31,596 nucleotides of DNA from a virus, in the IMG/VR virus record IMGVR_UViG_3300025647_000162, positions 1 to 31,596 of that record. One strand, 5' to 3'. Position numbers and translations under genes: made by a program. This document shows positions 1 through 16,575 of the stretch, piece by piece; the first letter of the stretch is position 1, and each line of letters starts with the position of its first letter. The notes below the pieces were generated by a model that was not told where the DNA came from, did not search any database, and saw only the letters and a list, made by a program, of their open reading frames with translations.

Positions 1-3000
1 TCTATCTTTTTGTTGTAAAGTTCTGTCACTATATAGATTAGCTTGTAATTGTTTATACATTAAACTTTTTGTTGTTGCTTCACTATAATTAAATCTTCCA
101 CTAAATTCAGTATTTAAAATGTCGCTTTTAAATGCTCCTTGTTTTTGTCTGAATGTTTGGAATCTTGTTAATGTTGCTTTATCTGTATTTTTTCTAATTC
201 CATTAATAATATCATTGTAGATAGGAACTGACTGACCTAGTTGCTTTGCAGCCTCTTTAATTAATATCTCTTGTTGACCTTTAGTTTCAGAAAAAAACAA
301 TCCTTGTGAAGCTAAAGACATTGCACCTAATAGTTTCTGACCATTCTGAACAATAGCAGGTGTTAATGATTGAGCTATAGGTCTATTAGTTTCTGCGAAA
401 GCTGAAAATATACCTAAACCTTCTCCCTCAACAAAATAATTCCACAATCTTTCTGGAGCAGATATAAATTTATCTGGGTCTGTGTTATGAATTTTATAAT
501 ACATGTTTTGTAATGTAGCACCAGCTATAGTAGAAGCAGCTAAATATCTTAACATAGGTGCTACTTCTCCATTTTGTACTAAAGGTTTATAAGCATTTTG
601 ATATACATTTTCTGTTACACGTAAAGCAATACGATAGAAAAGAGTAAAAGGTTTAGCATAAGCATTACTCATGAATCTTGGAAGAGCTGTAGGGTCAGCT
701 AATCCTTGAGTTAATGTATGACCTCTGAAGTATATTTGTCTTAATTGGTCTTCATTAAATGAACCTCTTTTAATTGCTTGTTCCCATCCTTCTACTTGAA
801 ATACATCTTCTAAAATTCTTCTTGCTTGAGATTTATCCATTTTAAGAAATACATCATCTGTCTTTCCTGCTAATACTTTTAATGCATCATCTGATGCAAC
901 TTCTGCTACTGCAACTGATATTAATCTGTTTTTCTGCTCTGTAACTTTCATTCCTTTTGTTAAGAAACGTTGAATAGCTCCACTTTTTCCTTCACCTCTT
1001 CTTGCTACACCAACAGTTTCTACAATTTGTTCTCCAGCATCTAAAGCACCAACTTTAACAGCTCTTTCATATACTGATTGTTGAAACTTTTCATCAGTCA
1101 TCATTTTAAACATAGCTCTCATATATTTTTTTGAACCAAAGGTAGTGATTGTTTGAACTTGACCTAATACAAGATTCTTTAAAGCTGACCTAGGGCTACT
1201 TAAACCAACAGAAGCTGTCCATGCTGTAGCTTTTCTTAAAACAGGACTTACAATTTCATCATAAGAGTCACCTCTTAAAACAATATCCATATCTTTTTCT
1301 AATTCACCTTTGATATAATTAATATCTTTAATATTACCTACCTCTTGTTCCATCTTTCTAATTCTTTCTGTAAATTTTTTTGTAAAATTACCATCTTTAA
1401 TTACACCTTCAGGACCAAAAAATTTTGAAGTAGATGTAATGCTAGCAGCTCTACCTGCATATCTATCCATAGTCAATCCATAATCTAATATGTAAGTATC
1501 AACTACTTTACCAATTTTGACTCCATTAAATGTATCTCCTACACCTAATTTCATATTATCTACTCCAGAGATAATTGCACCACTTTCATCTAAAAATATT
1601 TTAGGAGGTAGTTTAGCAGTACGTGAATATTGAGCACCATAAATACCATGTTTAGCACTATGAGATAAAGTATCATCTAATATTTCACTAGCAATTTCAT
1701 ATTTATTTTTAGCATTAAAGAAATTACCACCACGTTTAAACCTTTTATCTGTCTTCAATATAGCGTCAATCATAGAGTCTCTTAATGGTCCATCTTGTCT
1801 AGATAATAATTCTGATGCTTCGTCTGAAACAGTAAGACTTACAAAGTTCTTAACTTTTTGTATATCTTGATTTTCAAAATTTTTACCATTAAAAACTTTT
1901 TCTGGTACATTTGCTTTTTTCATTCTTGTAAATATATCATCTACAAATTTTTCATGTATTTTAATTACATCATTTAAAGCTGCTTTTTGTTTATTATTTA
2001 AAGGACTTCTTAAACTTTCAAATCTATCATCAATATGATAAATCAATTCTTTATCTAATTGTTCTGCTTCTGCTTTTGATAAATCATAAAAATTATATCT
2101 ATCTTTCATTTTATCTCTTGAAGCTCTATAAGTACCTTTTATTTCTTCTCTCATCCTTGTCATTTGAGTCATATCTTTTTCTAACTTAATCAGTTCTTTA
2201 CTTCCTAAGTCTCTTCCAAGATTTCCAAATTTAGTACTAACAGGTAAGAATCTATTTAATGTTTTTTTGAAGTTACTAATAGCAGGATTATTGTCAAAAA
2301 GAATACCACCATTCTCATCATTTAATCTTGTAGTATAAGATGGTTGATTGTCTATTAAAGCTTTATATTGAAGTAATTCATCATCTGTCATTTTTGTAAT
2401 AGAGTCTTTACCAAATACGTTTAGCTTTAATGCAGTGTGTCTATTGTCTAATGGAGACTTTGATAATAATCCAGCTTCTCCTTCAAGAATTTTAATTTCT
2501 TTATATAAATTAATTCTTTCTGGGGCAGCTGCAATCTTTTTTGATGATTCTAATAATATTTCATCAGCTCTTATTAATTGTTGAGTTTTATTCATAGTTG
2601 GATTTCTAAGAGTTACATCTTTCTTCCAATCTATTAAATAACTAAATGATAATTCTTCATTATTCTTGCTTGTAATTTTTGTATAATATTCAGTTTTTTG
2701 AGCATCTGTTCCATATAAAATATTCTTTTTTATCTCAGGAAAATATCCAAATTCATTTATATCATTTTGGTCCCAATATACATCTTTAACTTTTACTTTT
2801 TTAGATATAACTTTTCCTACATTAGGACCTAAGTTATTCTCTGCATGAAGCTTTGCGTATGTAGGACTTAATGTAACAAAATCTCCCCTATTAATTTCAT
2901 TTACATTTTCAGGAACTCCTCTATATATTGTAACTGTTGCATTAGGATTATTTCTATATATTTTTGCAAGACGATAACTTTCATCATTAGACCTACCAGC

Positions 3001-4959
3001 CATATCTATTTCTCCTGATGTAAGTTTTCTTTCTCCTGGTGCAAATACTCTTTTACCTTGTGGAGAATAAAAATAATCTGGATAACCAGCTCTTTCCCCT
3101 GTAGTGCTTCTTGTAAGATTATCTAATCTAACTGGTAATTCATCTTCTGGACCTTGTGCTTGATGTGCACGTCTATATTTAACATCTGGCTCAGTCATGT
3201 TTTGTGCTTTTAAATTGTACACAACTTCTGTTATTTCGTTTTTCTTTTCTCCTACTTTATATCCAACCTCTTCATAAACTAATTTACCATCTTTATCATA
3301 TACAGGTTCACCATTTTCTAATTTTTTAATTTTTCTTTTAGGTCTTCTTATATTCAATATTCCTTTTTGTGTAGCTACTGATTCTTGACCAAATATTTTA
3401 GATAATTCTACTGCATCTTTTTCTTTTAAACCTTTTACAATAAATCCTCTACCATCAGAAACATTATTATATACACCTTCAACAGCCATTATCTGATTTC
3501 TTTTATACCCTCTAGATAATAACTCTCTAATTAATACTTCATTAGGAGTTTCTCCATAAAGACCTATTGCCTTATTATCATAAAAAACAGGCTTATTAGC
3601 TGTTATAATTCCAAATTTTTCTGTGTTTAAAAATGATTCTAATTGTTTTTGGTCTTCAAAGAAAGAGAACTTTCCTCCTTTACCATCAAGATTATATTTT
3701 ATTTCTTGTACAAGGTTATTATCTGACCTTTTATAGTTTTCATTAAAATTTTTGAAGTCTCTTGTAACTAAATCTTTTGGCTCTCCATTTTTATAATATG
3801 TTTGATATTCTACTTTTAATTTTTTATCTTGAGGGTCTACATATACTTTTCTTACTTTTGCAGTAGTTTTTACTTCACCTGTTGTTTTATCAAAACTGCT
3901 AAAATCTACAGTTTTATATTGTTCATCTACAGCAGTAATAGCTTGTTTATTTATCACACCAAGAGCTATATCTGAATATTCACTGAGTTTCTTTTCATCT
4001 GTTAAACCAATTCTTTCTAATGCTCTTCTAACATCTTGTTTAGAAGCTTGCATTGTTGCACCACCAAATAAAGCACCTAAACCAGTAGATAATGCACCTG
4101 TTAATACTCTACTTCCTAAATCTAATCCTTCTTCATTAGGTAAACTTGTAACAAATCCAGACATAAAATAAGAACCTAATTCTGCTGATTTACTTTGACC
4201 TAAACTTTTTATATATGGATTATTAGTAAATTTAAAAGCTGGTGCTACTGCAAATAAAGCACCTGCTACTGCATCTTGTCCGAAAGCTACTGCACGCTGT
4301 TTAAACGATGCGTCATCTTCTTGCATCATTTGACCAGTTGTACCAAAGATTAAAGCTTCTTTACCCATCTCACGTGCTAAAACAAATCTTCTTGCAGCTG
4401 CAACATCTGTCTCTGCAAGTTTCATAAATTTGTCCATATAAGATTTTTGAACTCCATTCTTACCAAGAGCTCTCATCAAGAAAGAATTTTTTATACCAAT
4501 ACCAGCTTCAGCAATACCTACTGCCATATCATCGACTTTACCTGCTTTTTTAGCAGCATTATATATTTGAGCTCCTTTTTGTAATCTAGCAGCACTTGAA
4601 CCTAACATTGCTAATCCACCAAGACCTCCAGTGGCTACAGTAGCTAAAGCTGTGACACCAAAAAATGCTGCTCCAGAACCTAGTAATTTACCTGCTTTTG
4701 CTGCACCAGATAATTCATCTGCATCTAATCTTGGGTCATTATATAATTTACCGAATGTTAATTCTTCACCAAGACTGCTAAAAAAAGCTTCAGTGAATGT
4801 AGGCATTTCTGGTCTAATCATTGATGTCGTTTGTGTAGGAGCTTCTGTTTGAGCCAGTGCCAAGAAGTTTGGTCTGTTTTGAGTTTGAGTTTGAGTTATA
4901 GATGTATCTACACCTGCTAATTCAAAGAAATTAGGTCTTGTTTGGTTTCCATTTGCCAT
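1..4959 (-). CDS. Giant internal virion (ejection) protein with ADP-ribosyltransferase-like domain; C-terminus beyond window
   Basis: The minus-strand frame is open from an ATG at 4959 to base 1 with no stop, giving 1653 codons before the left edge. It is the last of four consecutive genes that look like internal virion proteins, as in T7-type ejectosomes, and would be injected with the DNA. The N-terminus has two copies of an RPNF-x-x-LA motif (residues 9-16 and 29-36), then an Ala/Gly-rich hydrophobic stretch (about 93-122) and further hydrophobic patches near 230 and 290. Residues 678-742 show an ART-type signature: IYRG (R680), DFVTLSPTYA (S698), and DINEFGY (E736). The rest is charged and probably helical. 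No lysozyme or transglycosylase motif was recognised in the visible part. The start has no clear SD and lies 12 bases after the previous stop. The ejection role is inferred from size, position and neighbours. Confidence 0.85.
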   Translation of the reverse strand, partial: MANGNQTRPNFFELAGVDTSITQTQTQNRPNFLALAQTEAPTQTTSMIRPEMPTFTEAFFSSLGEELTFGKLYNDPRLDADELSGAAKAGKLLGSGAAFFGVTALATVATGGLGGLAMLGSSAARLQKGAQIYNAAKKAGKVDDMAVGIAEAGIGIKNSFLMRALGKNGVQKSYMDKFMKLAETDVAAARRFVLAREMGKEALIFGTTGQMMQEDDASFKQRAVAFGQDAVAGALFAVAPAFKFTNNPYIKSLGQSKSAELGSYFMSGFVTSLPNEEGLDLGSRVLTGALSTGLGALFGGATMQASKQDVRRALERIGLTDEKKLSEYSDIALGVINKQAITAVDEQYKTVDFSSFDKTTGEVKTTAKVRKVYVDPQDKKLKVEYQTYYKNGEPKDLVTRDFKNFNENYKRSDNNLVQEIKYNLDGKGGKFSFFEDQKQLESFLNTEKFGIITANKPVFYDNKAIGLYGETPNEVLIRELLSRGYKRNQIMAVEGVYNNVSDGRGFIVKGLKEKDAVELSKIFGQESVATQKGILNIRRPKRKIKKLENGEPVYDKDGKLVYEEVGYKVGEKKNEITEVVYNLKAQNMTEPDVKYRRAHQAQGPEDELPVRLDNLTRSTTGERAGYPDYFYSPQGKRVFAPGERKLTSGEIDMAGRSNDESYRLAKIYRNNPNATVTIYRGVPENVNEINRGDFVTLSPTYAKLHAENNLGPNVGKVISKKVKVKDVYWDQNDINEFGYFPEIKKNILYGTDAQKTEYYTKITSKNNEELSFSYLIDWKKDVTLRNPTMNKTQQLIRADEILLESSKKIAAAPERINLYKEIKILEGEAGLLSKSPLDNRHTALKLNVFGKDSITKMTDDELLQYKALIDNQPSYTTRLNDENGGILFDNNPAISNFKKTLNRFLPVSTKFGNLGRDLGSKELIKLEKDMTQMTRMREEIKGTYRASRDKMKDRYNFYDLSKAEAEQLDKELIYHIDDRFESLRSPLNNKQKAALNDVIKIHEKFVDDIFTRMKKANVPEKVFNGKNFENQDIQKVKNFVSLTVSDEASELLSRQDGPLRDSMIDAILKTDKRFKRGGNFFNAKNKYEIASEILDDTLSHSAKHGIYGAQYSRTAKLPPKIFLDESGAIISGVDNMKLGVGDTFNGVKIGKVVDTYILDYGLTMDRYAGRAASITSTSKFFGPEGVIKDGNFTKKFTERIRKMEQEVGNIKDINYIKGELEKDMDIVLRGDSYDEIVSPVLRKATAWTASVGLSSPRSALKNLVLGQVQTITTFGSKKYMRAMFKMMTDEKFQQSVYERAVKVGALDAGEQIVETVGVARRGEGKSGAIQRFLTKGMKVTEQKNRLISVAVAEVASDDALKVLAGKTDDVFLKMDKSQARRILEDVFQVEGWEQAIKRGSFNEDQLRQIYFRGHTLTQGLADPTALPRFMSNAYAKPFTLFYRIALRVTENVYQNAYKPLVQNGEVAPMLRYLAASTIAGATLQNMYYKIHNTDPDKFISAPERLWNYFVEGEGLGIFSAFAETNRPIAQSLTPAIVQNGQKLLGAMSLASQGLFFSETKGQQEILIKEAAKQLGQSVPIYNDIINGIRKNTDKATLTRFQTFRQKQGAFKSDILNTEFSGRFNYSEATTKSLMYKQLQANLYSDRTLQQKDR

Positions 4960-4971
4960 AGTTTATTTTAT

Positions 4972-6156
4972 TTAGAAAGCACCAGACATTCCTATTCTAC
5001 TTAACATTTCTTCTTTCTGTGCTCTTTGTGCTACAGTTTGCTCTATAGGTCTGTCTATTATTTTTTGAAGTTCTCTAGTTAGAGAGTCATATTCCTCTCT
5101 AGTTTTTGCTTCTTTGCGTTTATCACGAAGTTCTTTTATTTTTCTATTTTTTGTTTCTTTATCAAATACTGCGTCAAAATATCTATATTCTCCAGTATCT
5201 AGATTAATTTCTATATTTTTTTCTGTTCTACTTTCATCGTTATTTTCTACAACTATAATTCCAGATTGTCCTTGTGACTTAAATGCTTCTAATTCTTCTC
5301 GTTCTAAAAAACCTCCAGTTTCTGTAACAGACCCTGGTTCACCAACTTTTACATCCTCTACTCTACTTAATTCATTTAGTTTTGATTCAACATTATTGAT
5401 AACGAATTGTGGTGCACCTGCATTTATTAGTCCTGGTAAAGCATTTGATAAATCAGTAAATAATTTATTTTTATCTTTTTCGTTTTCAATAGAATCTAAT
5501 TTTTGTTTATCTAATCTTCCAATAACAAAAGAGAATATTTCTGTTGGATTTTGAGAACTGTTTACAACATTTCTTATTTCGTCTTCATTAGCTCCAAAAT
5601 CTACTATATCAAGAACTCCATTAGCAAATTCTCTACCTTGTTTTACTGCTACTTTTTTATCTATTGTTGATAAATCTCTTTTAATGTTTTTTGCTTCTAA
5701 ATCTAATTTAAGTGCATTAGTTGCATTTAGAGCTTCATCATAAGTCATATTATCTATATTGGTATATAAATTTTTAATCTGTGAGTTTAAGTTATTATTG
5801 TTTTCAATAGTAACCTTTTTAGATTTACTAACAGAATTAGCTAGACTTCTACCATTATCTGTTTTGAGGCTTAAATTGTCGAAATATGTTATTGCTGAAT
5901 CTCCCTCTAACTCAGAACCTATTTTAACCAATTCTACATCAGATGAATAATCTCTAGCATCTTTTAAATCATTATATTGTCTATATTGAAATGCTTGTAA
6001 ATCAGCGTAACGTTTATCTTCTGTTTCTTTAGCGTCTCTGTATCTTTGTTGTTCTACCAATAATCCAGGTAACTGATTTAACATATTACCTAAAGTATCT
6101 TGTCTTGCTGCCATTGATGCTGCATCTAAAATAGCGTCTACATCGCTTCTAGCCAT
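4972..6156 (-). CDS. Putative internal virion protein, helical
   Basis: 394 residues, rich in Asp, Glu, Lys, Asn and Gln, with long predicted helices and no membrane segment. The N-terminal 60 residues (MARSDVDAILDAASMAARQD and following) are amphipathic, and the C-terminal third (about 330-390) is a highly charged coiled-coil-like stretch. No enzyme motif was recognised. The ATG at 6156 overlaps the upstream stop as TAATG, which suggests translational coupling. Its position between two other likely internal proteins and the giant protein suggests a core or ejection protein comparable in role to T7 gp14/gp15, but no family was identified by sequence. Confidence 0.8.
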   Translation of the reverse strand: MARSDVDAILDAASMAARQDTLGNMLNQLPGLLVEQQRYRDAKETEDKRYADLQAFQYRQYNDLKDARDYSSDVELVKIGSELEGDSAITYFDNLSLKTDNGRSLANSVSKSKKVTIENNNNLNSQIKNLYTNIDNMTYDEALNATNALKLDLEAKNIKRDLSTIDKKVAVKQGREFANGVLDIVDFGANEDEIRNVVNSSQNPTEIFSFVIGRLDKQKLDSIENEKDKNKLFTDLSNALPGLINAGAPQFVINNVESKLNELSRVEDVKVGEPGSVTETGGFLEREELEAFKSQGQSGIIVVENNDESRTEKNIEINLDTGEYRYFDAVFDKETKNRKIKELRDKRKEAKTREEYDSLTRELQKIIDRPIEQTVAQRAQKEEMLSRIGMSGAF

Positions 6157-6785
6157 TAAACTGTTCCTCCAGTTGGGTTGTATTGAAATCCACCACCATA
6201 TAAATAATCTAATTGTGATTGTAAGTTGTATTGAAATTGAGAATCTTGTTGCATCATTGGATTTGTAGTTACAGTTCTATTGTTGTTTTCATCAAATAAT
6301 CCTGCTAATTCTGCAACACGTAGAGCATCTGACCTTCTTTGAGCTTCTAATTCTGCTACATATCTTCTTTCAGCTCCAACTCTTTCTACAATATCTGATT
6401 CAATATCATATAGTCCTCTTCCAAAAGCAGAAGCAGCTCTTTCTCCTCTCATAGAAGCTTCTCTACTAAGTTCTCCCATAAGACTTCTACCTCTTACTAA
6501 TCCAGCTCTACCCATCATACCTCTTGCTTCTCTTTGACTTTGGAATAAGCTTGATTGTAATCCAGTATAAGTTTCACCAAGTTGTTGTGATAATCTCTGT
6601 TGTTGCTCTCCTCTGAATTGTTGATATATATCGGCACTAGGGTCAGTTAAAGCATATAATTCTTGAGGTATTTCTGGTATAAACTGAGCATATTGACCAT
6701 ATTGTGAAGGTGTAACACCTAAAGGTCCATACATAGATTCAAGAAACTCTTGAGTTGTTTGTGGTGTAAATAATTGATTAGGCAT
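6156..6785 (-). CDS. Putative internal virion protein, Gln/Arg-rich
   Basis: 209 residues. The N-terminal 50 residues are rich in Pro, Tyr and Gln; the middle (about 55-165) is a helical region rich in Arg, Gln, Ser and Gly (segments such as QSQREARGMMGRAGLVRGRS); the C-terminus is Gln/Asn/Tyr-rich with a YGGGFQYNPTGG tail. No transmembrane segment or catalytic motif was recognised. The ATG overlaps the stop of the upstream gene as TAATG, and its own stop overlaps the next start in the same way. Grouped with the flanking genes as a possible ejection protein. The function is an inference from position. Confidence 0.78.
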   Translation of the reverse strand: MPNQLFTPQTTQEFLESMYGPLGVTPSQYGQYAQFIPEIPQELYALTDPSADIYQQFRGEQQQRLSQQLGETYTGLQSSLFQSQREARGMMGRAGLVRGRSLMGELSREASMRGERAASAFGRGLYDIESDIVERVGAERRYVAELEAQRRSDALRVAELAGLFDENNNRTVTTNPMMQQDSQFQYNLQSQLDYLYGGGFQYNPTGGTV

Positions 6786-7684
6786 TACAGATTCTCTCCT
6801 ATATATCTCATTGGTGTAATACTATAATTAAATAAACTATTTCTTTTTTTATAATTAGGATATAGATTTTGTAAATAATTTAATTCATCCATATTAGTAG
6901 CACTATTTAATAAATTATTTGAAAAGTCTAATACATTAGGAACTTGACCTCCAAGAGTATTAGGTATCTGAGTCATTCCCAAAGCTCTTGTAAAGTTTCC
7001 AGTAGGAGTGACATTTGTTAATAATTCAGACAACTCACCCATTCTTTTTTCTCCAATACCACCAGCTGCACTTCTTAATACATCTACTAAATAATCTTTT
7101 TTAGATATTTGTCCTGTTTCTAATAAATCATCTAAAGAAACACCTAAATCTCCTATTTTAGCTTCTCCTAATTTACCAAGACCTCTACCTGTTAGATAAT
7201 CAGTAAGGACATTCTTTCCAATATTTAGTCTTTGTTGTTCTGTAAGGTCTTCGAATGCTTCTTCTAAGTCTGCTGCACGTTCTCTAAATGCTTCTCTTTC
7301 TCTACCATAAAATACTCCACCAGGAACTAAACTATCAGGTACTTCTACACCATAGCTTTTAAATCCACCTGCAGCTGCTTGACCTGCTAGAGAACCTAAA
7401 GCTGTACCTAATGCTGCTTTTCCTGCTGGTCCACCAATCGCATATCCTGCGATACTACCTAATAATCTACCAAAAGAAACTCTTCTTCCACGTTTACGTG
7501 CATTTTCTTCAGCTTCTTTTGCTATTTTTTCTAGTTGGTCTGCTGCTCTTTCTAATGCTTCTTTCTCTTGAATAGCAGTTAATCCAGTACGAAACTGTGC
7601 ATAACTACGTTCAGATGTAGCTCTAGCTTTAGCAGCAGAAACTCCTAGTTGTGATTGTTGATATTGTGAAAAGCCGTTACTCAT
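6785..7684 (-). CDS. Putative internal virion protein with glycine-zipper membrane-like segment
   Basis: 299 residues. After a Gln/Ser-rich N-terminus comes a strongly charged helix (about 40-68, with ERAADQLEKIAKEAEENARK), then a Gly/Ala-rich hydrophobic segment (about 73-110, with GSIAGYAIGGPAGKAALG) of glycine-zipper type that could insert into a membrane. The remainder is soluble and charged. Such a membrane-active segment fits a phage ejection protein that helps form a channel through the host envelope (compare the role of T7 gp14), but homology is not established here. An SD-like GAGG lies about 10 bases upstream of the ATG. It is the first of four probable internal protein genes. Confidence 0.8.
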   Translation of the reverse strand: MSNGFSQYQQSQLGVSAAKARATSERSYAQFRTGLTAIQEKEALERAADQLEKIAKEAEENARKRGRRVSFGRLLGSIAGYAIGGPAGKAALGTALGSLAGQAAAGGFKSYGVEVPDSLVPGGVFYGREREAFRERAADLEEAFEDLTEQQRLNIGKNVLTDYLTGRGLGKLGEAKIGDLGVSLDDLLETGQISKKDYLVDVLRSAAGGIGEKRMGELSELLTNVTPTGNFTRALGMTQIPNTLGGQVPNVLDFSNNLLNSATNMDELNYLQNLYPNYKKRNSLFNYSITPMRYIGENL

Positions 7685-8056: not shown

Positions 8057-8307
8057 TATTGACCATCTCTAATTGCTATCATATCTGCAAGTTCTGCTTC
8101 ACATAATGCTAAGTCAGCTTCTAATCTTGCTTTGTGTGCTTCACAATCACTAATTGCTTGGTCAAGCATTTTATTTTCAGTCCAATCAAGCACTTCTACA
8201 TCTGCACCATTTAAATCTTGTACAGTTCTTGTATGTTTGATTTGAATCATTTTTGGTGAATCAGCTACAACTTGTTCAGGTGTATATTCTGATATTACTT
8301 TAGCCAT
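8056..8307 (-). CDS. Small coiled-coil protein after the tail fibre
   Basis: 83 residues. Residues 1-40 look like a beta-type segment (IQIKHTRTVQDLNGADVEVL), and residues 45-80 form a clear acidic amphipathic helix (AISDCEAHKARLEADLALCE). The gene starts inside the last codons of the tail fibre gene, with GGAGAAG about 5 bases before the ATG, so expression is coupled to the fibre. The size and place fit a fibre assembly factor or short fibre-associated protein, but no family was recognised. Confidence 0.75.
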   Translation of the reverse strand: MAKVISEYTPEQVVADSPKMIQIKHTRTVQDLNGADVEVLDWTENKMLDQAISDCEAHKARLEADLALCEAELADMIAIRDGQ

Positions 8308-11300
8308 TTAACTTCTCCTTCAGTTCGTTTATTTGTTGTTGTTGTTCTTGAACTGCCTTTATTAATACAGCAGTTAATTTTTCATAATCCAAAGTCTTTA
8401 TTTCTTTATCAAAGTGTTTTTTATCTTTGACAATTTCAGGAATTACTTTTTCTACTTCTTGTGCAATAAATCCAATATCGTGTCTATTGTCTTTTTTCCA
8501 GTCATATTGTTTTGGTTTTAGTTTTAGAATAGTATCTAAACCATAATCAATTTCTTTAATATTTGTTTTTAATCTTTTATCTGATGGTGTTGTAGAAAAT
8601 GCAATAACATCTTGGTCAAAATGTGCATCTCCTCCTGATTCAAAAATAACTCTTTCTGTGCCATTTGGTCTAAATTTCATATCATTAGCACCTATCGTAT
8701 CTATAAATGCTTGACCATTCCATCTTAAAACATCTCCACCATTTATTCTTACATTACCAGCAATATGAAGTTTATCTCCAGGCGATGTAGTTCCTATGCC
8801 GACATTTCCTGATGAGTCTATTTTCATTTTTTCAGTAGCATTAGTCCAAAACTCCATAGCATCAGTAGAATGTTCATAAACTATTGTTCCTCTCCAAGAG
8901 TCATTAGCACCTCTACCATCTGCAAAAGATATTTGTCCATTTCCTGATATAGAATCAGAATAAATTAATAATCCAGTATATCCACCAACACTCGGCCCAC
9001 CAATAATAACTTGATGTCCTGAATTAGCAATAGCACCACTACCTGAAGTTCCAAATTCTGCAATAGCAGCAGTACCATTAGAAGTTGTAGTATATTCTAC
9101 TTGTAACTTAGAATCAGGTGATGTAGTTCCTATACCGACATTACCTGAATCTAAAATTTCTATTGAACCATTACTTCCATAAGTTCCTGCTCTTGTAGCT
9201 AAAGATATTCTACCATCACTTCTTTGTGATATTTCTGCATCATAAGATGCTCTACTATCTCTTAATTCTAATTTTCCTGGACTATCTGTTTGATAAATAT
9301 AAGCAAATCCTTCTGCTACATGTAGCTTTGCACTTGGTGATGTAGTTCCTATACCGACATTACCTGCTGCTGATATTCTCATCTTTTCAGTTTCACTTCC
9401 TGATGCAGAAGTGTTGTACATAGTATAAAATGCTAAAGCAGGTTGAAGATAGCTTGGATTGTTGCCCTCATATACTGTTGCTATTTTAGTAGAATAACTA
9501 CCATCGTCTTTACCCATAGTAACAGCAACACCATTGCCAACAGCACTTGTAGTATCAGTTAAATTGTTTGATAAATGAAGGGCATTTTTTATACTATTTG
9601 TAGCAGTTGCAGCTACTTGTAATTTTTGTGTAGGTGAGTTAGTGCCTATACCGAAATTTCCAGTATGATTGTAATAAGAATTTGTACCATTTCTTGCATC
9701 AAGATTAATAACTGAAGTTCCTGAAGCATTTCTTATATTTATTAATCCACCATCTGTTCCACTATAAATATCTACTGCACCTAATGCACCATTGTGTTCA
9801 AATCTTGCTTGGTCTCCACTTGCACCTTTTACTACAAACTTTTTACTTGGTGAGTTAGTTCCTATACCGACTCGTTCTGCACTACCATCTATAAATAAAT
9901 TAGTTACATAAGCACTACCAGCACTATTTAAGTTTTGAAATATAGTATCTTTACCTGCTGTGAAATTTGCAATATAAAAATTATCTTCATAAGAATATAA
10001 AACTCCATCTCCACCTGCACCGAATTTAAGGTATTGTAAATCATTAGGAATTTCAATATGTCCTGTGGTATCTTTAATTTTAAATCTTGTTGCTACACCA
10101 TTTTCATCTATTATAAAATCTCCATTTAGGGCATATACATCATAAGTATTGGTAGTAGTGATTAATCTATTATAAGCACCATAACCTGCTGCTGTTGATT
10201 CTGTTCTAAATACTGCACTACCATTAGCATAATTTCTTAAAGAACCATTAACATCTAATTTATATCCAGGTGTTGTAGTTCCTATACCGACATTACCTGC
10301 TGAGTCTATTCTTAATCTTTCAGAAGCAGAAGAAGCACCACTTGCTTTTGTAAACAATCTCATTTCAGATGGTACTGTTCCATCAGAATTAGCAACAATA
10401 TCTGTTGTTTTTGTATATGGACTTCCTTGCGATTGATATGATGTAATTAATACACCTGCACCTGCAGAAGTATAAGTTTTATAAGCACTAAGTCCAATTT
10501 CATATATATGTAATTTTTCTAAAGGTGAGGTAGTTCCTATACCGACTGAGCCAGGAATATATACATCTCCATCATCTTGAAATTCTGCTAAAGAAGTTCC
10601 ACCATAATTTTTAATTCTAAATGTTCCACCACTAATAAGATTTTGAATATTAGATGCTTGTAAATAATTACTTGAAGAAGATATTTTTATATTACCTGAT
10701 ACTTCCAACTTTTCACCAGGTGATGCAGTTCCTATACCTACCCTTGAAGTACTATCTACTACTAAAGTATCACTTCCTGCACCATCTTTAATTTTTACTG
10801 GTGTTGCAGGTACTGAAGCATCATAAAAACTAAACCAATTATTAGTTGCATCATACCCAATATTCCAAGCTACATCAGTGTTTTCTTTAAAATGTATTCT
10901 TGTATTATTAGTATCACTTCTTAATTGTAATATTGCATTACTACCACTTCTATTTATTTCTAATTGTCCTGCACTATAAGTTAATTCTGACTCTACATCT
11001 ATTGTAGTGCTACTACCATAAGTCAATACTCCATTAGCAGTTGAGCCATTGTAGGTGAGTCCTGCAGTTCCATTTTCCCAAAAACCAGTACCAAAGTTGT
11101 AAATCAATGCTTGGTTAGCACTTGGAGAAGTAATTGTAACATCAGATAAATTACCAATAGGAATATCAATATTAGCACTACCATCAAAAGCAACTCCTGC
11201 AATATTTCTTGCAGTTCCTAATTTGGTAGCAGTAGAAGCATTGCCTGATAATGCCCCATAAAATGTGGTAGCTTGAACACTACCTTCTGTATAAGTAATA

Positions 11301-13669
11301 TCTCCAGTAGCATCGGCAGTTGCTGTGGTTGTTCCCAATACCCATCTGTCTTGAGATTCGTCCCAAATAATCATTGCATTATCGCCTGTGCTACCTCGTT
11401 CTATAATAATTCCTGAATCGTTAGAATTAGAAGCAACTCCTTGATTGAGTTCAATAATATTATCAGTAACTTTTAAATTAGTAGTATCTAAAGTGGTGGT
11501 TGTTCCATTAACTGTTAAATCACCACTAAGAGTTAGATTAACACCAGTAGCAGTTCCTGTAAAAGCAGGGGAAGCTAAGGTTTTATTACTTAAAGTATCT
11601 GTGCTTGTTGTGGTTATAAATCCTGCATCGTTATTTAAAATACTTAAAGGAATTTCATTTGCAGGTTTTTTTGATTCTGTAGTTCCATCTAATACAATAA
11701 ATTGGTCTGTGCCTACCATAGCAATACCATTCATATCAGTTGCTTCATTTAAATCTACATCAATCGTAATACTACCTGATGATGTGATTGGTCCACCTGA
11801 TACATCAATTAAGCTACCTGGAGTAATCCCTACACTGGTTACTGTTCCTGTTGTAGTGCTATAACCATAGGATAATATTCTATCATCAATCGCAGCAGAA
11901 GTCATAAGAGTTGTATCATTGTCTGCAAATACTTCTGCACTTGTTGTTAAAGAACCAGCTGCAAGTTCTGATACAGTTAATCCAGTAACAGACAATGTTT
12001 GACTATGTGCTCCTGAAGTAGTACTTACTGTTCCAGTTAAACCTGTTCCTGCAGTAATGCTAACTGAAGTAATATCTCCAGTGTTATTAGTAAAAGGCAA
12101 ATCACCTACATTTGTTTTAACTATACTTGTTGAAGAATTATCATATAGCATTATTTGGTCATTTGTTGTATCAACAGCATCAGCTAGAGAAGTTAATCCA
12201 TTTATATCTACTTCAATACTATCTGCATTAACTGTAATACCAGTACCAGCTCCAACATTTAAACTTCCTGTAGTAGTTATTGAACCAGTTAATCCATTTC
12301 CACCTGTGACACTAGTTACTGTACCAGTGCCATATCCATATTCTTCAATTTTAGATTCTGTAGCTAATGCAGTTAAAATTCTTGAATCATTTAATGTAGG
12401 AGGAGTGCCAGAATTAAATTCTGTATCTGTAATAATAACATCAGCATCAAAATTAGAAAGTGCTAAAGAACCAACTGATATTGTTCTTGCGACTGCTCCT
12501 GTATAATTTGTTCCTGAACTAAAATTAAGACCACTTCCAACTGTTAATGCCCCTAAAGTTCCACCTAAAGAAACACCACTAATAGTATAAGCTGCTAATT
12601 TAGTAATTGTAATTGCAGCATCACTTGCTATATCTCCATCTTCAATAACACCTGCACTTATAGCAGTAGATAAAGATACATTTCCTGTTCCGTCAAAACT
12701 AACACCACCTGCAGTTATTTCTCCTGTTAAAGTAAAGGTTCTTGCAGTTTCTAAAGCTGTTGCTGTAGAAGCATTCCCTTCTAATTCAGCAACTAATGTT
12801 CCAGTAGTATATCCTGTTCCAAGTACATTAACTGTTGAAGTAGGCTCAGTTTGTAAATCTTTAAATAGCTTAAACTTACCACTATCATCAGCATCTCTAA
12901 ATAATCCAGCATATAAATCTTGTGAGCCACTGGTATCATATAAACCATAAAAACCAATATCAACTGTATCTGATGCACTATTAGCTTTTGCTAATTTTAT
13001 CAGTGGGTCTTGAACAGCAAGAGTGTCAGTGTCAATAGTAATGGTTGTTCCATTAACAATTAAATTACCTGATAAAGTAAGATTAGCAGCATTTGTTGTA
13101 CCAGTAAAAGTAGGAGATGCAAAGATAGTTGCAGTATCAACAGCTATATCATCTGCATTAACTGTAATACCAGTTCCTGCTCCAACATTTAGTGTTGTAC
13201 TTGAACCTAAAGAAACTGAACCACCATCTGTTAATCCACTTCCAGCAGTTACTGTAATAGAGCTATTTGTTAAAGAACTATTTCCTATATTTGTTAAAGT
13301 ATTACTTGAACCACTAATAGTTTTATTAGTTAGGGTTTGTGTGCCTGTTAAAGTAGCAACAGTAGAATCAATAGAAAGTGTAACTGGTCCTGATGCTCCA
13401 CCACCACTTAGTCCAGTAGATGCAATAACAGCAGTAATATCACCACTAGGTTCAGTAGTTGGAGTAGAAATAGTAATTGCTGAAAGTGCTTTTGTTCCTT
13501 GCTCTGAATATCTTGTTTCGTAGACAACGCCATTTCTTTTTTCTTGTTTGACAAGTTGACCTTTCTCAAGAAATGAGATTGACTCTCCTTCTCTTATGGT
13601 ATTTCTAGATGGTCTTACCTTAAAAAAGGAGTCAACATTATTGACGTTATGTTCTCCTGATTTTGGCAT
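8300..13669 (-). CDS. Long tail fibre with C-terminal S74 intramolecular chaperone
   Basis: 1789 residues; the largest complete gene here. The N-terminal half is Thr/Ser/Gly-rich beta repeats, including two copies of GAGTGITVNAD and paired LTLSGxLxVNGTT blocks typical of trimeric fibres. The second half has eight copies of the VGIGTxSPxxKL repeat. The C-terminus is a peptidase S74 (endosialidase-type) chaperone: SDKRLKTNI at 1696-1704, then DIGFIAQEVEKVIPEIV and a terminal Gln-rich coiled coil. In this family a Ser and a Lys five residues later cut the chaperone off after trimer folding; here these are S1696 and K1701, so about 94 residues would be released. The start overlaps the previous stop as TAATG. 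The N-terminus should attach to the tail and the distal part should bind the host. The ligand cannot be read from sequence. Confidence 0.93.
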   Translation of the reverse strand: MPKSGEHNVNNVDSFFKVRPSRNTIREGESISFLEKGQLVKQEKRNGVVYETRYSEQGTKALSAITISTPTTEPSGDITAVIASTGLSGGGASGPVTLSIDSTVATLTGTQTLTNKTISGSSNTLTNIGNSSLTNSSITVTAGSGLTDGGSVSLGSSTTLNVGAGTGITVNADDIAVDTATIFASPTFTGTTNAANLTLSGNLIVNGTTITIDTDTLAVQDPLIKLAKANSASDTVDIGFYGLYDTSGSQDLYAGLFRDADDSGKFKLFKDLQTEPTSTVNVLGTGYTTGTLVAELEGNASTATALETARTFTLTGEITAGGVSFDGTGNVSLSTAISAGVIEDGDIASDAAITITKLAAYTISGVSLGGTLGALTVGSGLNFSSGTNYTGAVARTISVGSLALSNFDADVIITDTEFNSGTPPTLNDSRILTALATESKIEEYGYGTGTVTSVTGGNGLTGSITTTGSLNVGAGTGITVNADSIEVDINGLTSLADAVDTTNDQIMLYDNSSTSIVKTNVGDLPFTNNTGDITSVSITAGTGLTGTVSTTSGAHSQTLSVTGLTVSELAAGSLTTSAEVFADNDTTLMTSAAIDDRILSYGYSTTTGTVTSVGITPGSLIDVSGGPITSSGSITIDVDLNEATDMNGIAMVGTDQFIVLDGTTESKKPANEIPLSILNNDAGFITTTSTDTLSNKTLASPAFTGTATGVNLTLSGDLTVNGTTTTLDTTNLKVTDNIIELNQGVASNSNDSGIIIERGSTGDNAMIIWDESQDRWVLGTTTATADATGDITYTEGSVQATTFYGALSGNASTATKLGTARNIAGVAFDGSANIDIPIGNLSDVTITSPSANQALIYNFGTGFWENGTAGLTYNGSTANGVLTYGSSTTIDVESELTYSAGQLEINRSGSNAILQLRSDTNNTRIHFKENTDVAWNIGYDATNNWFSFYDASVPATPVKIKDGAGSDTLVVDSTSRVGIGTASPGEKLEVSGNIKISSSSNYLQASNIQNLISGGTFRIKNYGGTSLAEFQDDGDVYIPGSVGIGTTSPLEKLHIYEIGLSAYKTYTSAGAGVLITSYQSQGSPYTKTTDIVANSDGTVPSEMRLFTKASGASSASERLRIDSAGNVGIGTTTPGYKLDVNGSLRNYANGSAVFRTESTAAGYGAYNRLITTTNTYDVYALNGDFIIDENGVATRFKIKDTTGHIEIPNDLQYLKFGAGGDGVLYSYEDNFYIANFTAGKDTIFQNLNSAGSAYVTNLFIDGSAERVGIGTNSPSKKFVVKGASGDQARFEHNGALGAVDIYSGTDGGLINIRNASGTSVINLDARNGTNSYYNHTGNFGIGTNSPTQKLQVAATATNSIKNALHLSNNLTDTTSAVGNGVAVTMGKDDGSYSTKIATVYEGNNPSYLQPALAFYTMYNTSASGSETEKMRISAAGNVGIGTTSPSAKLHVAEGFAYIYQTDSPGKLELRDSRASYDAEISQRSDGRISLATRAGTYGSNGSIEILDSGNVGIGTTSPDSKLQVEYTTTSNGTAAIAEFGTSGSGAIANSGHQVIIGGPSVGGYTGLLIYSDSISGNGQISFADGRGANDSWRGTIVYEHSTDAMEFWTNATEKMKIDSSGNVGIGTTSPGDKLHIAGNVRINGGDVLRWNGQAFIDTIGANDMKFRPNGTERVIFESGGDAHFDQDVIAFSTTPSDKRLKTNIKEIDYGLDTILKLKPKQYDWKKDNRHDIGFIAQEVEKVIPEIVKDKKHFDKEIKTLDYEKLTAVLIKAVQEQQQQINELKEKLNG
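8582..8584 (-). other. Predicted S74 self-cleavage site (codon of S1696)
   Basis: The codon for the catalytic serine of the S74 motif SDKRLK lies here. By analogy with the endosialidase C-terminal chaperone, cleavage occurs just before this serine, using the Ser and the Lys five positions later. Both residues are present. Confidence 0.6.
8781..10746. repeat. Eight dispersed copies of a VGIGTxSP-coding repeat in the tail fibre gene
   Basis: Near-identical DNA copies with the core GTAGTTCCTATACCGACATT (plus strand) begin at about 8781, 9117, 9335, 9633, 9849, 10269, 10524 and 10719. Each encodes a VGIGTxSP turn followed by xxKL and marks the boundary of a fibre module. Spacing varies (about 195-420 bases), so modules between the repeats differ in length while the junction sequence stays constant at the DNA level. 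Confidence 0.85.
12221..13190. repeat. Pair of DNA repeats encoding GAGTGITVNAD
   Basis: The segments at 12221-12280 and 13151-13190 share ATCTGCATTAACTGTAATAC and further matching bases. They encode the same GAGTGITVNAD motif about 310 residues apart in the N-terminal half of the fibre, indicating duplication of a fibre module. Confidence 0.7.
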
Positions 13670-16065
13670 TATGAAGGTCTCTTATTAGTTTGTCTATAAT
13701 CTATATTAATATCATTAATAGTAATTGCACCATCAGCAGTTAATTCAAAAGCCATTGATTCACAATTTCTATCTGCTGAGTCTATTGTAAATTCTTTAAT
13801 CACATAGTCTGTACCTAAAGAAACTGCAGGATTTCCATCTGTAGCTGTAGCAAAAGTTGTTTCTCCATCATTAGCATATTTAAGAGTTAATGTAGTTCCA
13901 CTTCCTTTTGCAGTAACAAATACTCTATTAACTCTTTTTACTAATCCAGGATTACCAAAATCTAAATCTTTTGTTTTTAAATCTATATTGTTTGTTCCTG
14001 TATCACCTGTTAATAACATTACTGTTTTAGCATTAACTGAACCATATTCTATGAAATATAGACCATCAGATGTCTGAACAAAGTTTGACATTCCACCAGT
14101 CATAGATTTTGTTACAGACCATCCTTGTGTTTGAAAATCATATACAAGGAAATCATCTGTTGCACTTGTATCTTGACATACAACTAATTGTTTATATTTA
14201 GAATTATAACCTATAGCTGGTCTTTCTCCTGAATTATTTCTAAATGTATTATCGTCTAAAAATAATGATAGTTCTTTAGGAGCACTTGTACCATCAAATA
14301 AATACACTCCATCATCATTTACCCAACATACACCAAATGGTGTCTTACATACTGATTCTTGAGTTCTACATCCTACACCTTCGTATTCTGCTTCTAAATA
14401 CCATCCTGCATCTGAAGTAGAAGATACATTAATAATGTATAGTTTCTTCTGTTTAAACGCTAGCACTCTATTTCCTAAACTATGTAATCCTGTGAATGAG
14501 TCTCCATCACTAATACCAATATCTAAATAATATGAATCAGGAAATGTTGCAAATTGATTTACTGGAGAATAATAAACTCTATCATCATAAACCACATCAT
14601 TTTTTCTTACATTCGCAATCCATGCTCTTCTTGAACAGATAGTAGCTGCTTTATATCCACCTTTATCTCCTAAATTAATACTTTTTTCTTCTTGAGAATA
14701 TCCGTTAATACTTTCATAAGTATCTAATGCTGGTCTTAGTATTCTTAATTGGTTTTGTAAATAAGCTGTATTACCAGCACTACCATAAGTAGAGCTTGCA
14801 TGCCATGCTTCAAAATCTTCAAATAAATTTCTTCTTGCTCCTCTTTCATAGTCTACATCTAAAAATAAAATGTATCTATCATTTGAATCTTTAATTCTAG
14901 TATATATTCTTACACCTTTTTCATTTTTTCTAAAAGCACTAGCAGTATTAAATTTAATATCAACATCATCAAAGAATTGACCTGATGCTATAGTAGCATG
15001 ACTTAAAGCAGTATCAAAAACATGAGGTAATGTTTCATTACCACCATAATCTACTATAGTATAAGAAAACTCATAAATCCCTTCTTCCCATGCACCTCCA
15101 CCAGCTGGTTCATCACTAGATTGTTGTAATGTACTATCAGTTCCTGCAATGTGTGACCTTATAGAAGTACTAAATTGACCTCTATTAGCAAAGAATGATG
15201 TTACTCCACCTGAAAAAGTAGGAGCAATAGAAACAACCATAATTTCACCATTTAAATATATTTTAGTATTAACTGTGAATAAAGAACTAGCATCATTTCC
15301 ACTAGCTGTTGTTACTTTCACTAATGAAACAAATTCAGTACCTGATAAATCTGCTTGCAAATATACTGCTTCACCTGTTGCTTCAAAGTCTGATAAAGAT
15401 GATTGAGTAGGAGAACTATTAAATCCTAATCTAAATTCACCAGCTGCAGAAGCAGTACTTAAACTAACAGTAGTTTCATTTTCTATTGCTTCAAAAATTG
15501 CATCAGTAGTACTTGATGGACCTGAATCTCCAGATACCCATTCTGCATTTACTGGTTGATTAAATCTTTCTTTTGATACTAATTGTATAGATTTTTGCGT
15601 ATATGAACCAGTAGCATCTACTCTATCTTTATCTGCAATATACAACACTCCATCAACATAATAGTACACTGGTTCAAATGTTGCATCACCAGTCATAGTA
15701 ATAGCATTACTAGTATCTCCATCAGTAAAATCTCCAGTTGTATTATAGGTTCTATATAAAAATTCTATATCAGTTCCATCTGGATATGCTATAATTTGTG
15801 TTGCTGTTTGTGTTACTGGTGCTGATGAATCACTAATATCATAATCATGATTATAAATAAAAGCACCATTACCATAATTACCAGTAGTAGTTTTATTAAA
15901 TCCTGTTAATTTACTATCTGCGTCTTTACTGGATTGTACTAATCCTACATTAGACAAAATAACATTATCTGCTAATTGTACCTGATTAGGTGCAATATCC
16001 CTAGGAGAGGACTTAGTATTAAGTCCTCCACTAAAGTTATTTAATTGTAGGGATGCTCTAGGCAC
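13669..16065 (-). CDS. Tail hub/nozzle-like structural protein, GTG start
   Basis: 798 residues. It starts LQLNNFSGGLNTKSSPRDI, a pattern seen in large tail proteins of short-tailed phages. The body is rich in beta strands and aromatic residues, with segments such as RAWIANVRKNDVVYDDRVYY, PVNQFATFPDSYYLDI and LHSLGNRVLAFKQKKLYII that suggest propeller-like blades (about 440-690). A small beta domain is inserted at about 237-310 (see findings). The start is GTG at 16065: the conserved N-terminus begins exactly there and there is no nearby ATG. Its own SD is poor, and the codon directly follows the stop of a 10-residue micro-ORF with a strong SD, so translation may be coupled. Directly upstream of the tail fibre gene, it probably forms the tail nozzle or hub to which the fibre attaches. 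Confidence 0.85.
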   Translation of the reverse strand: MPRASLQLNNFSGGLNTKSSPRDIAPNQVQLADNVILSNVGLVQSSKDADSKLTGFNKTTTGNYGNGAFIYNHDYDISDSSAPVTQTATQIIAYPDGTDIEFLYRTYNTTGDFTDGDTSNAITMTGDATFEPVYYYVDGVLYIADKDRVDATGSYTQKSIQLVSKERFNQPVNAEWVSGDSGPSSTTDAIFEAIENETTVSLSTASAAGEFRLGFNSSPTQSSLSDFEATGEAVYLQADLSGTEFVSLVKVTTASGNDASSLFTVNTKIYLNGEIMVVSIAPTFSGGVTSFFANRGQFSTSIRSHIAGTDSTLQQSSDEPAGGGAWEEGIYEFSYTIVDYGGNETLPHVFDTALSHATIASGQFFDDVDIKFNTASAFRKNEKGVRIYTRIKDSNDRYILFLDVDYERGARRNLFEDFEAWHASSTYGSAGNTAYLQNQLRILRPALDTYESINGYSQEEKSINLGDKGGYKAATICSRRAWIANVRKNDVVYDDRVYYSPVNQFATFPDSYYLDIGISDGDSFTGLHSLGNRVLAFKQKKLYIINVSSTSDAGWYLEAEYEGVGCRTQESVCKTPFGVCWVNDDGVYLFDGTSAPKELSLFLDDNTFRNNSGERPAIGYNSKYKQLVVCQDTSATDDFLVYDFQTQGWSVTKSMTGGMSNFVQTSDGLYFIEYGSVNAKTVMLLTGDTGTNNIDLKTKDLDFGNPGLVKRVNRVFVTAKGSGTTLTLKYANDGETTFATATDGNPAVSLGTDYVIKEFTIDSADRNCESMAFELTADGAITINDINIDYRQTNKRPS

Positions 16066-16272: not shown

Positions 16273-16575
16273 TTACCATTTAACTTTATCTGCCCAATAA
16301 GCTGCAGACATTTTACCTTTTGCTATATTCTTAGCGTGTCTTGCCTTGAAACTTTTTCTTCTAGCTTTTTGTTTAGCAGATTCACCTTTTTTAGGTTTAC
16401 CTGCAGTTTTTACTCCTTGTTGTCCAAAACGTATAGTCTTTACTTTATCGCCTTCTTTAGCTACAACAATGTGTGACTTTTTAGGATGATTAGGAGTACG
16501 TTTAGGTTTATTATAACCAGATACACCAGCTCTTGATAAACGAGGGTCTTTTTTTGATGTTTTTTTAGTTGCCAT
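16273..16575 (-). CDS. Small basic protein, DUF5872-like
   Basis: 100 residues, very rich in Lys and Arg. The C-terminal part (FGQQGVKTAGKPKKGESAKQ, then RRKSFKARHAKNIAKGKMSA and AYWADKVKW) matches my memory of the DUF5872 family, a conserved small protein of unknown function found in many phages and giant viruses. The charge suggests a nucleic acid-binding or DNA-packing role, and it may be a virion component. It starts 11 bases inside the end of the preceding gene. The family name is recalled, not searched. Confidence 0.8.
   Translation of the reverse strand: MATKKTSKKDPRLSRAGVSGYNKPKRTPNHPKKSHIVVAKEGDKVKTIRFGQQGVKTAGKPKKGESAKQKARRKSFKARHAKNIAKGKMSAAYWADKVKW

Follow-up and report, generated by a model that had tools for sequence, protein, structure and literature searches.

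The window analysed here, a viral record 31,596 bases long with a G+C content of 0.33, encodes on its minus strand a giant protein, P0001 (1..4959, -), that carries an inserted domain at residues ~588-744 (2728..3198, -, linkers included, as delimited by an ortholog alignment). We cautiously favour the view that this insertion is an optional, compact enzyme of the ADP-ribosyltransferase (ART) superfamily, with an R-[T/S]-E site, housed in a giant protein that would be packaged and ejected. P0001 comprises at least 1653 aa, its frame being still open at the window edge and its C-terminus lying beyond that edge, in agreement with the more than 1650 residues given in a preliminary description, which had called attention to a spaced R-S-E pattern in this protein. 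In the translation of window:1-4959:- the pattern is indeed found, with IYRG at residues 678-681, DFVTLSPTYA at 693-702 and DINEFGY at 733-739; residues 678-742 correspond to 2734-2928, one base away from the start at 2735 reported beforehand. The conserved core of the domain covers residues 595-742 (2734..3177, -), as outlined by the C-terminal region of PHROG_2579, by an alignment of 122 domains and by an AlphaFold model, and the G+C content of the domain (0.325) is close to that of the whole gene (0.307).

The motifs belong to a genuine domain of a widespread phage family and are not due to chance, because they coincide with a match to phrog_2579, with relatives retrieved by tblastn and with about 300 IMG/VR loci per scan. 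In particular, residues 578-742 of P0001 match phrog_2579 with an E value of 6e-21, over positions 324-463 of the 472 in the profile, that is, its last third. This profile, labelled 'ParB C-terminal domain', is the sole existing one found for the domain and is matched by 10/10 diverse members of the family; no Pfam or NCBIfam model covering the domain was found. By tblastn the domain was detected in unrelated Mycobacterium, Vibrio and Gordonia phages, with E values down to 2e-9, and also in two Arthrobacter plasmids, while the two IMG/VR scans confirmed 297 and 296 relatives, 80 of which were retained from each. The proteins carrying the domain are mostly 200-700 aa long, the extremes being stand-alone forms of 129 aa and carriers of more than 3000 aa; the stand-alone genes encode 129-145 aa.

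Residue conservation was counted in the alignment of 122 unique domain sequences. The arginine of the IYRG motif, R680 (2920..2922, -), located on predicted strand 1, is invariant (119/119), and so is the glutamate E736 (2752..2754, -), where predicted strand 5 begins (122/122); no conserved loss of either residue, on both of which the preliminary description had made its proposal depend, occurs in the sampled phage copies. The serine of the earlier pattern, S698 (2866..2868, -), is retained in only 93 of the 122 domains and is otherwise T, D or N, so that the R and the E of the proposed triad stand and its S does not. T696 (2872..2874, -), at which predicted strand 2 ends, occupies instead the proposed STS-type position (TLS in the window) and is T or S in all 122. 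Since S698 is variable and position 696 is not, T696 is preferable as the candidate catalytic hydroxyl, and the triad predicted from conservation is R680/T696/E736, not R680/S698/E736. Further conserved positions are the near-invariant histidine H599 (3163..3165, -; 116/118), D693 and V695 (122/122 each) and H705 (121/122). Position 734, two residues ahead of E736, is I, V or L in 112/122 domains, and the 122-domain alignment lacks the E/Q-x-E (ARTT) motif by which arginine- or asparagine-type transferases are recognized. Because the residue at -2 from the glutamate is hydrophobic and E/Q-x-E is missing, the alignment advises against presuming that this domain performs classical arginine transfer. 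The chromosomal relatives of Sinomonas (L190, L192, L195), stand-alone and obtained from a genome scan with a narrower family alignment, keep the arginine and read DLDQYGY, with Q replacing E. Judging from this substitution they are possibly inactive or altered versions; the family is therefore not uniformly catalytic-looking.

The window domain was modelled by AlphaFold with a pLDDT of 91 and a pTM of 0.86, and a stand-alone relative of 140 aa (L173), ~44% identical to it, with values of 90 and 0.82. Both models display, in this order, a long helix, a strand with the R, a short strand ending at the T/S, a helix, a strand, a short strand and a strand beginning at the E. Specifically, in the window model R680 lies in strand E88-95, the hydroxyl strand spans 107-109 and E736 stands at the start of 150-152. 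R-S-E ARTs are characterized by the same order of strands and helices, with R on strand 1, the hydroxyl on strand 2 and E on strand 5; an ART-type arginine on the first core strand (YRG-type, here IYRG) and an ART-type glutamate on the fifth are both present in the window domain, each on a predicted strand.

Database comparisons were less decisive. The profile search for ART families advocated in the preliminary description matched no ART family among PDB sequences, Pfam or NCBIfam, and hhalign against a small alignment of T4 ModA, ModB and Alt returned nothing significant. When hhalign was run over 693 ORFs, T4 ModA and its relatives ranked 2-5, with WRGVP placed on IYRGVP, at a probability <3% and with the ModA alignment confined to the strand-1 to strand-2 region, an outcome that is suggestive only, the set having contained ModA copies used as positives. 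ART-PolyVal (PF18760) was matched neither by P0001 nor by the domain alignments, and the active site is not of the H-Y-D kind, as strand 1 bears R and strand 2 bears T/S. In Foldseek searches against the PDB, ART-superfamily chains (ExoS, ART2.2) occupied ranks 1, 2, 3, 5, 7 and 9 for the window model, and rank 1 for the L173 model was a tRNA 2'-phosphotransferase, likewise a member of the ART superfamily, with mostly unrelated matches (Hsp90) below it. These matches are nonsignificant, as the top ranks have E values of 0.7 and 1.5 and a TM of about 0.28, normally not taken as indicating the same fold. In a predicted viral library, the significant Foldseek matches were phage proteins resembling members of the family, including a 'large polyvalent protein'. 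Hence, of the ART-like domain put forward previously, what stands is a real domain with invariant R and E and, from the structure prediction then envisaged, an ART-like order of the R, T/S and E elements; a significant match to ARTs, by profile or by fold, was not obtained. We regard the domain as a probable ART: it is likely to have an ART fold, and we lean towards its being enzymatically active.

Comparison with orthologs indicates that the giant protein can exist with or without the insertion. Five IMG/VR orthologs of P0001, of about 1593-1757 aa, span residues 1-1653. In L002, L003, L004 and L005 (about 1593-1630 aa, 67-78% identical to P0001) the domain is cleanly absent, that is, in 4/6 orthologs when P0001 itself is counted, and in L006 (1757 aa) it is found at the same site as in the window. 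At the junction the window reads NLKAQ-[domain]-KKNIL, whereas L002 runs straight across with NLRSQ-GKGNVL, and when the complete records of L002-L005 were searched with a profile, no copy of the domain came up elsewhere. Given this clean absence in four orthologs and the same-site presence in L006, the domain behaves like an optional, plug-in-like cassette of the giant protein. In the rest of the giant protein the window shares 78% identity with domain-less L002 and 71.5% with domain-bearing L006; the domains of the window and of L006 are themselves 71% identical. Because the window is nearer to domain-less L002 than to domain-bearing L006, the best backbone tree of the six orthologs requires two gains/losses (deep node support 72-82%), and the cassette has probably, though not certainly, been gained or lost twice.

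The gene of P0001 is the last of the late (virion) gene block. It follows a tail fibre gene with a C-terminal S74 intramolecular chaperone (8300..13669, -; Pfam PF13884, E 5.7e-19, and PHROG tail fibre), upstream in the same block, and, between the two, three co-directional genes of 394, 209 and 299 aa (4972..7684, -) that are conserved in orthologous phages. The latter have no informative family or PDB match and are candidates for further internal virion proteins. Also in orthologous phages the P0001-type gene comes last and is followed by convergent replication genes, for example one for a DnaB-like helicase. P0001 itself has zero matches in Pfam, and outside the inserted domain none in PHROG or the PDB; a second known domain was not found in it with Pfam or PHROG. 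Hydrophobic stretches lie near residues 92-110, 224-242 and 285-303. The placement claimed earlier, similar to that of T7-type ejection proteins, holds as far as the giant protein is the last of the late block, but PHROG and PDB profile searches matched P0001 to no known internal virion protein. Since P0001 and its neighbours match no such protein, it is from gene position and from the company of its relatives that we infer a likely ejection of P0001 into the host. In this respect, the domain's partners in other phages, namely portal, internal virion and polyvalent proteins, would by analogy be company typical of ejected proteins, and polyvalent proteins have been proposed to be ejected together with DNA (PMC5512222).

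Different explanations must be weighed against the one preferred here. The fact that neither profile nor fold searches gave a significant ART match, the near-invariant H599, D693 and H705 outside the classical R-S-E triad and the best PDB profile match, to the type III effector HopA1 with a nonsignificant E of 0.068, would all suit a phage-specific enzyme domain of non-ART fold, in which R, H and E serve another chemistry and which would still be an effector cassette. We regard this as credible yet unlikely, in view of how R, T/S and E are ordered and spaced along predicted strands 1, 2 and 5 and of the ART-superfamily entries that came first in both independent fold searches. Still less probable is an inactive binding or structural insertion, of ART-like or other fold, involved in virion assembly or in host-factor binding. 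The carrier can, in fact, do without the domain, which is absent from four orthologs, S698 varies and the chromosomal Sinomonas copies have exchanged E for Q; nevertheless, R and E are invariant in all sampled phage copies, throughout diverse carrier architectures and stand-alone genes, and this invariance speaks for chemistry rather than for one structural role.

A distinct question concerns the carrier. If P0001 were a tape measure or a structural tail protein, the domain would end up in the tail or in the periplasm and not in the cytoplasm, and both the hydrophobic stretches, as in tape measures, and the lack of detectable internal-virion-protein homology would fit such a role. We give this only a small chance, since neighbours of the major tail, sheath and tape-measure kinds were unmatched in the families searched, the gene order is tail fibre, three small genes and giant last gene, and an orthologous phage has a separate internal-virion-protein match (phrog_511). 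Finally, the label of phrog_2579, shared in GenBank by 129-aa mycobacteriophage genes, would make the domain a ParB C-terminal domain. This reading was rejected and retains hardly any likelihood: Pfam ParB is matched by 0/10 diverse members, the match is limited to the last third of the PHROG profile and the labelled 129-aa gene consists of the ART-like domain alone. The label in PHROG_2579 and in many mycobacteriophage records therefore appears, from these matches, to be a mistaken transfer.

Should the domain be an ART delivered by ejection, the giant protein would be packaged in the virion with the domain inside and would enter the host along with the DNA. R680 and T696 would then bind NAD+, E736 would bring about nicotinamide release, and the ADP-ribose would be passed, early in infection, to an acceptor that may be a host molecule, a defence molecule or simply water (NAD+ hydrolysis). 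T4 Alt provides a precedent for timing, as it modifies RNA polymerase early in infection. Since the acidic or amide residue at -2 is missing, NAD+ hydrolysis or a non-arginine acceptor would be likelier, by analogy, than an arginine transfer of the ModA/ModB type.

Among known systems, T4 Alt, ModA and ModB have in common with the domain a YRG/WRG arginine strand, a hydroxyl motif and a glutamate in the same order (PMC5512222, PMC9503650, PMC10468400), and a ModB R73A, G74A mutant is inactive (PMC10468400). Moreover, Alt travels in the phage head and is injected, and delivery with the DNA is proposed for the P0001 domain too. However, there is no significant homology between them; ModA and ModB have EQE and Alt has EME, whereas the P0001-type domain lacks E/Q-x-E, is far more compact and is inserted in another virion protein instead of having a gene of its own. 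ART-PolyVal (PF18760), the ART of polyvalent proteins (PMC5512222), is likewise located in phage polyvalent or virion proteins thought to be ejected, and co-occurs with the ART-like domain in polypeptides of L142, L165 and L172, but its site is of the H-Y-D type and not R-[T/S]-E. T7 gp16 and the N4 vRNAP are also giant late proteins with hydrophobic segments, encoded at the end of the virion block; they show no sequence match to P0001, the likeness being of position and size only. Extra ART domains are known in N4-like vRNAPs, and Alt-family R-S-E ARTs are reported absent from genuine polyvalent proteins (PMC5512222). Siphoviruses and podoviruses carrying ARTs amount to only 3%.

The family keeps varied domain company. 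L142:819-6188 encodes a polypeptide of 1790 aa in which a phage portal is fused with two ART-PolyVal domains and the ART-like domain, thus bringing three candidate ADP-ribosylating domains together. The carrier in L086 matches the phrog_6651 internal virion protein (E 2e-50); in the same polypeptide as the ART-like domain there are LPD23 and GNAT in L075, a pyrophosphatase (InPase), GGDEF and GNAT in L156, GP88 and ART-PolyVal in L165, and ART-PolyVal in L172. Fusion to several unrelated conflict domains, which defines polyvalent proteins, is hence seen in the carriers of other phages and not in P0001. In our judgement it is an evenly balanced proposition that these domains form a large unclassified ART clade, with R-[T/S]-E and without E-x-E, acting as a plug-in effector that moves among portal, internal virion and polyvalent proteins of unrelated phages. 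If true, close phage relatives would differ in injecting an NAD+-using enzyme, and the orthologs of the giant protein, some bearing the domain and others lacking it, would offer a natural, clean comparison for the role of such an enzyme. Ejected ARTs are already known in T4 Alt and predicted, of H-Y-D type, in polyvalent proteins; new would be a separate R-[T/S]-E-like family as an optional plug-in, and a description of the PHROG_2579-type ART-like family was not found in the literature searched. Invisible to Pfam, labelled as ParB in PHROG and present in hundreds of phage copies, such a family would widen the catalogue of early-infection effectors.

Some additional observations concern single relatives and the surroundings of P0001. 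In one sub-group of the family the strands bearing the arginine and the hydroxyl are separated by a long insertion, which measures ~50 residues in L010; the sub-group includes L010:5653-6567, L103-L105, L107, L109, L112, L135, L138, L155, L160, L162, L167, L171, L174 and L181. The 129-aa form in L007:2992-3641 (Mycobacterium phage Elite2014 gp129-gp128) and L183 has a four-base overlap with a downstream HTH gene, a layout that resembles a toxin-antitoxin or regulated pair. An apparent extension of the L024 match to P0001 beyond the domain was unsupported by a search with the flanking segment, and weak pentatricopeptide and gasdermin matches, obtained in PDB profile searches with P0001 and the three small proteins encoded next to it, were judged to be chance. 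In an orthologous phage, a late protein of 716 aa (L200:469-2616, -) is the one matching the phrog_511 internal virion protein; the window gene at the corresponding position (13669-16065, 798 aa) has no match. Lastly, the window encodes at 16273-16575 (-) a small basic protein of 100 aa, which is 58-77% identical in unrelated phages (L080:7485-7754, L068:6480-6743, L010:5421-5645, L103:4398-4643, L109:4344-4622 and L125:117-341). In many phages its gene directly adjoins that of the ART-like domain, and in the window it belongs to the same late block, not adjacent to it; the protein is a possible functional partner, or a head-module marker, of the ART-like-domain gene.
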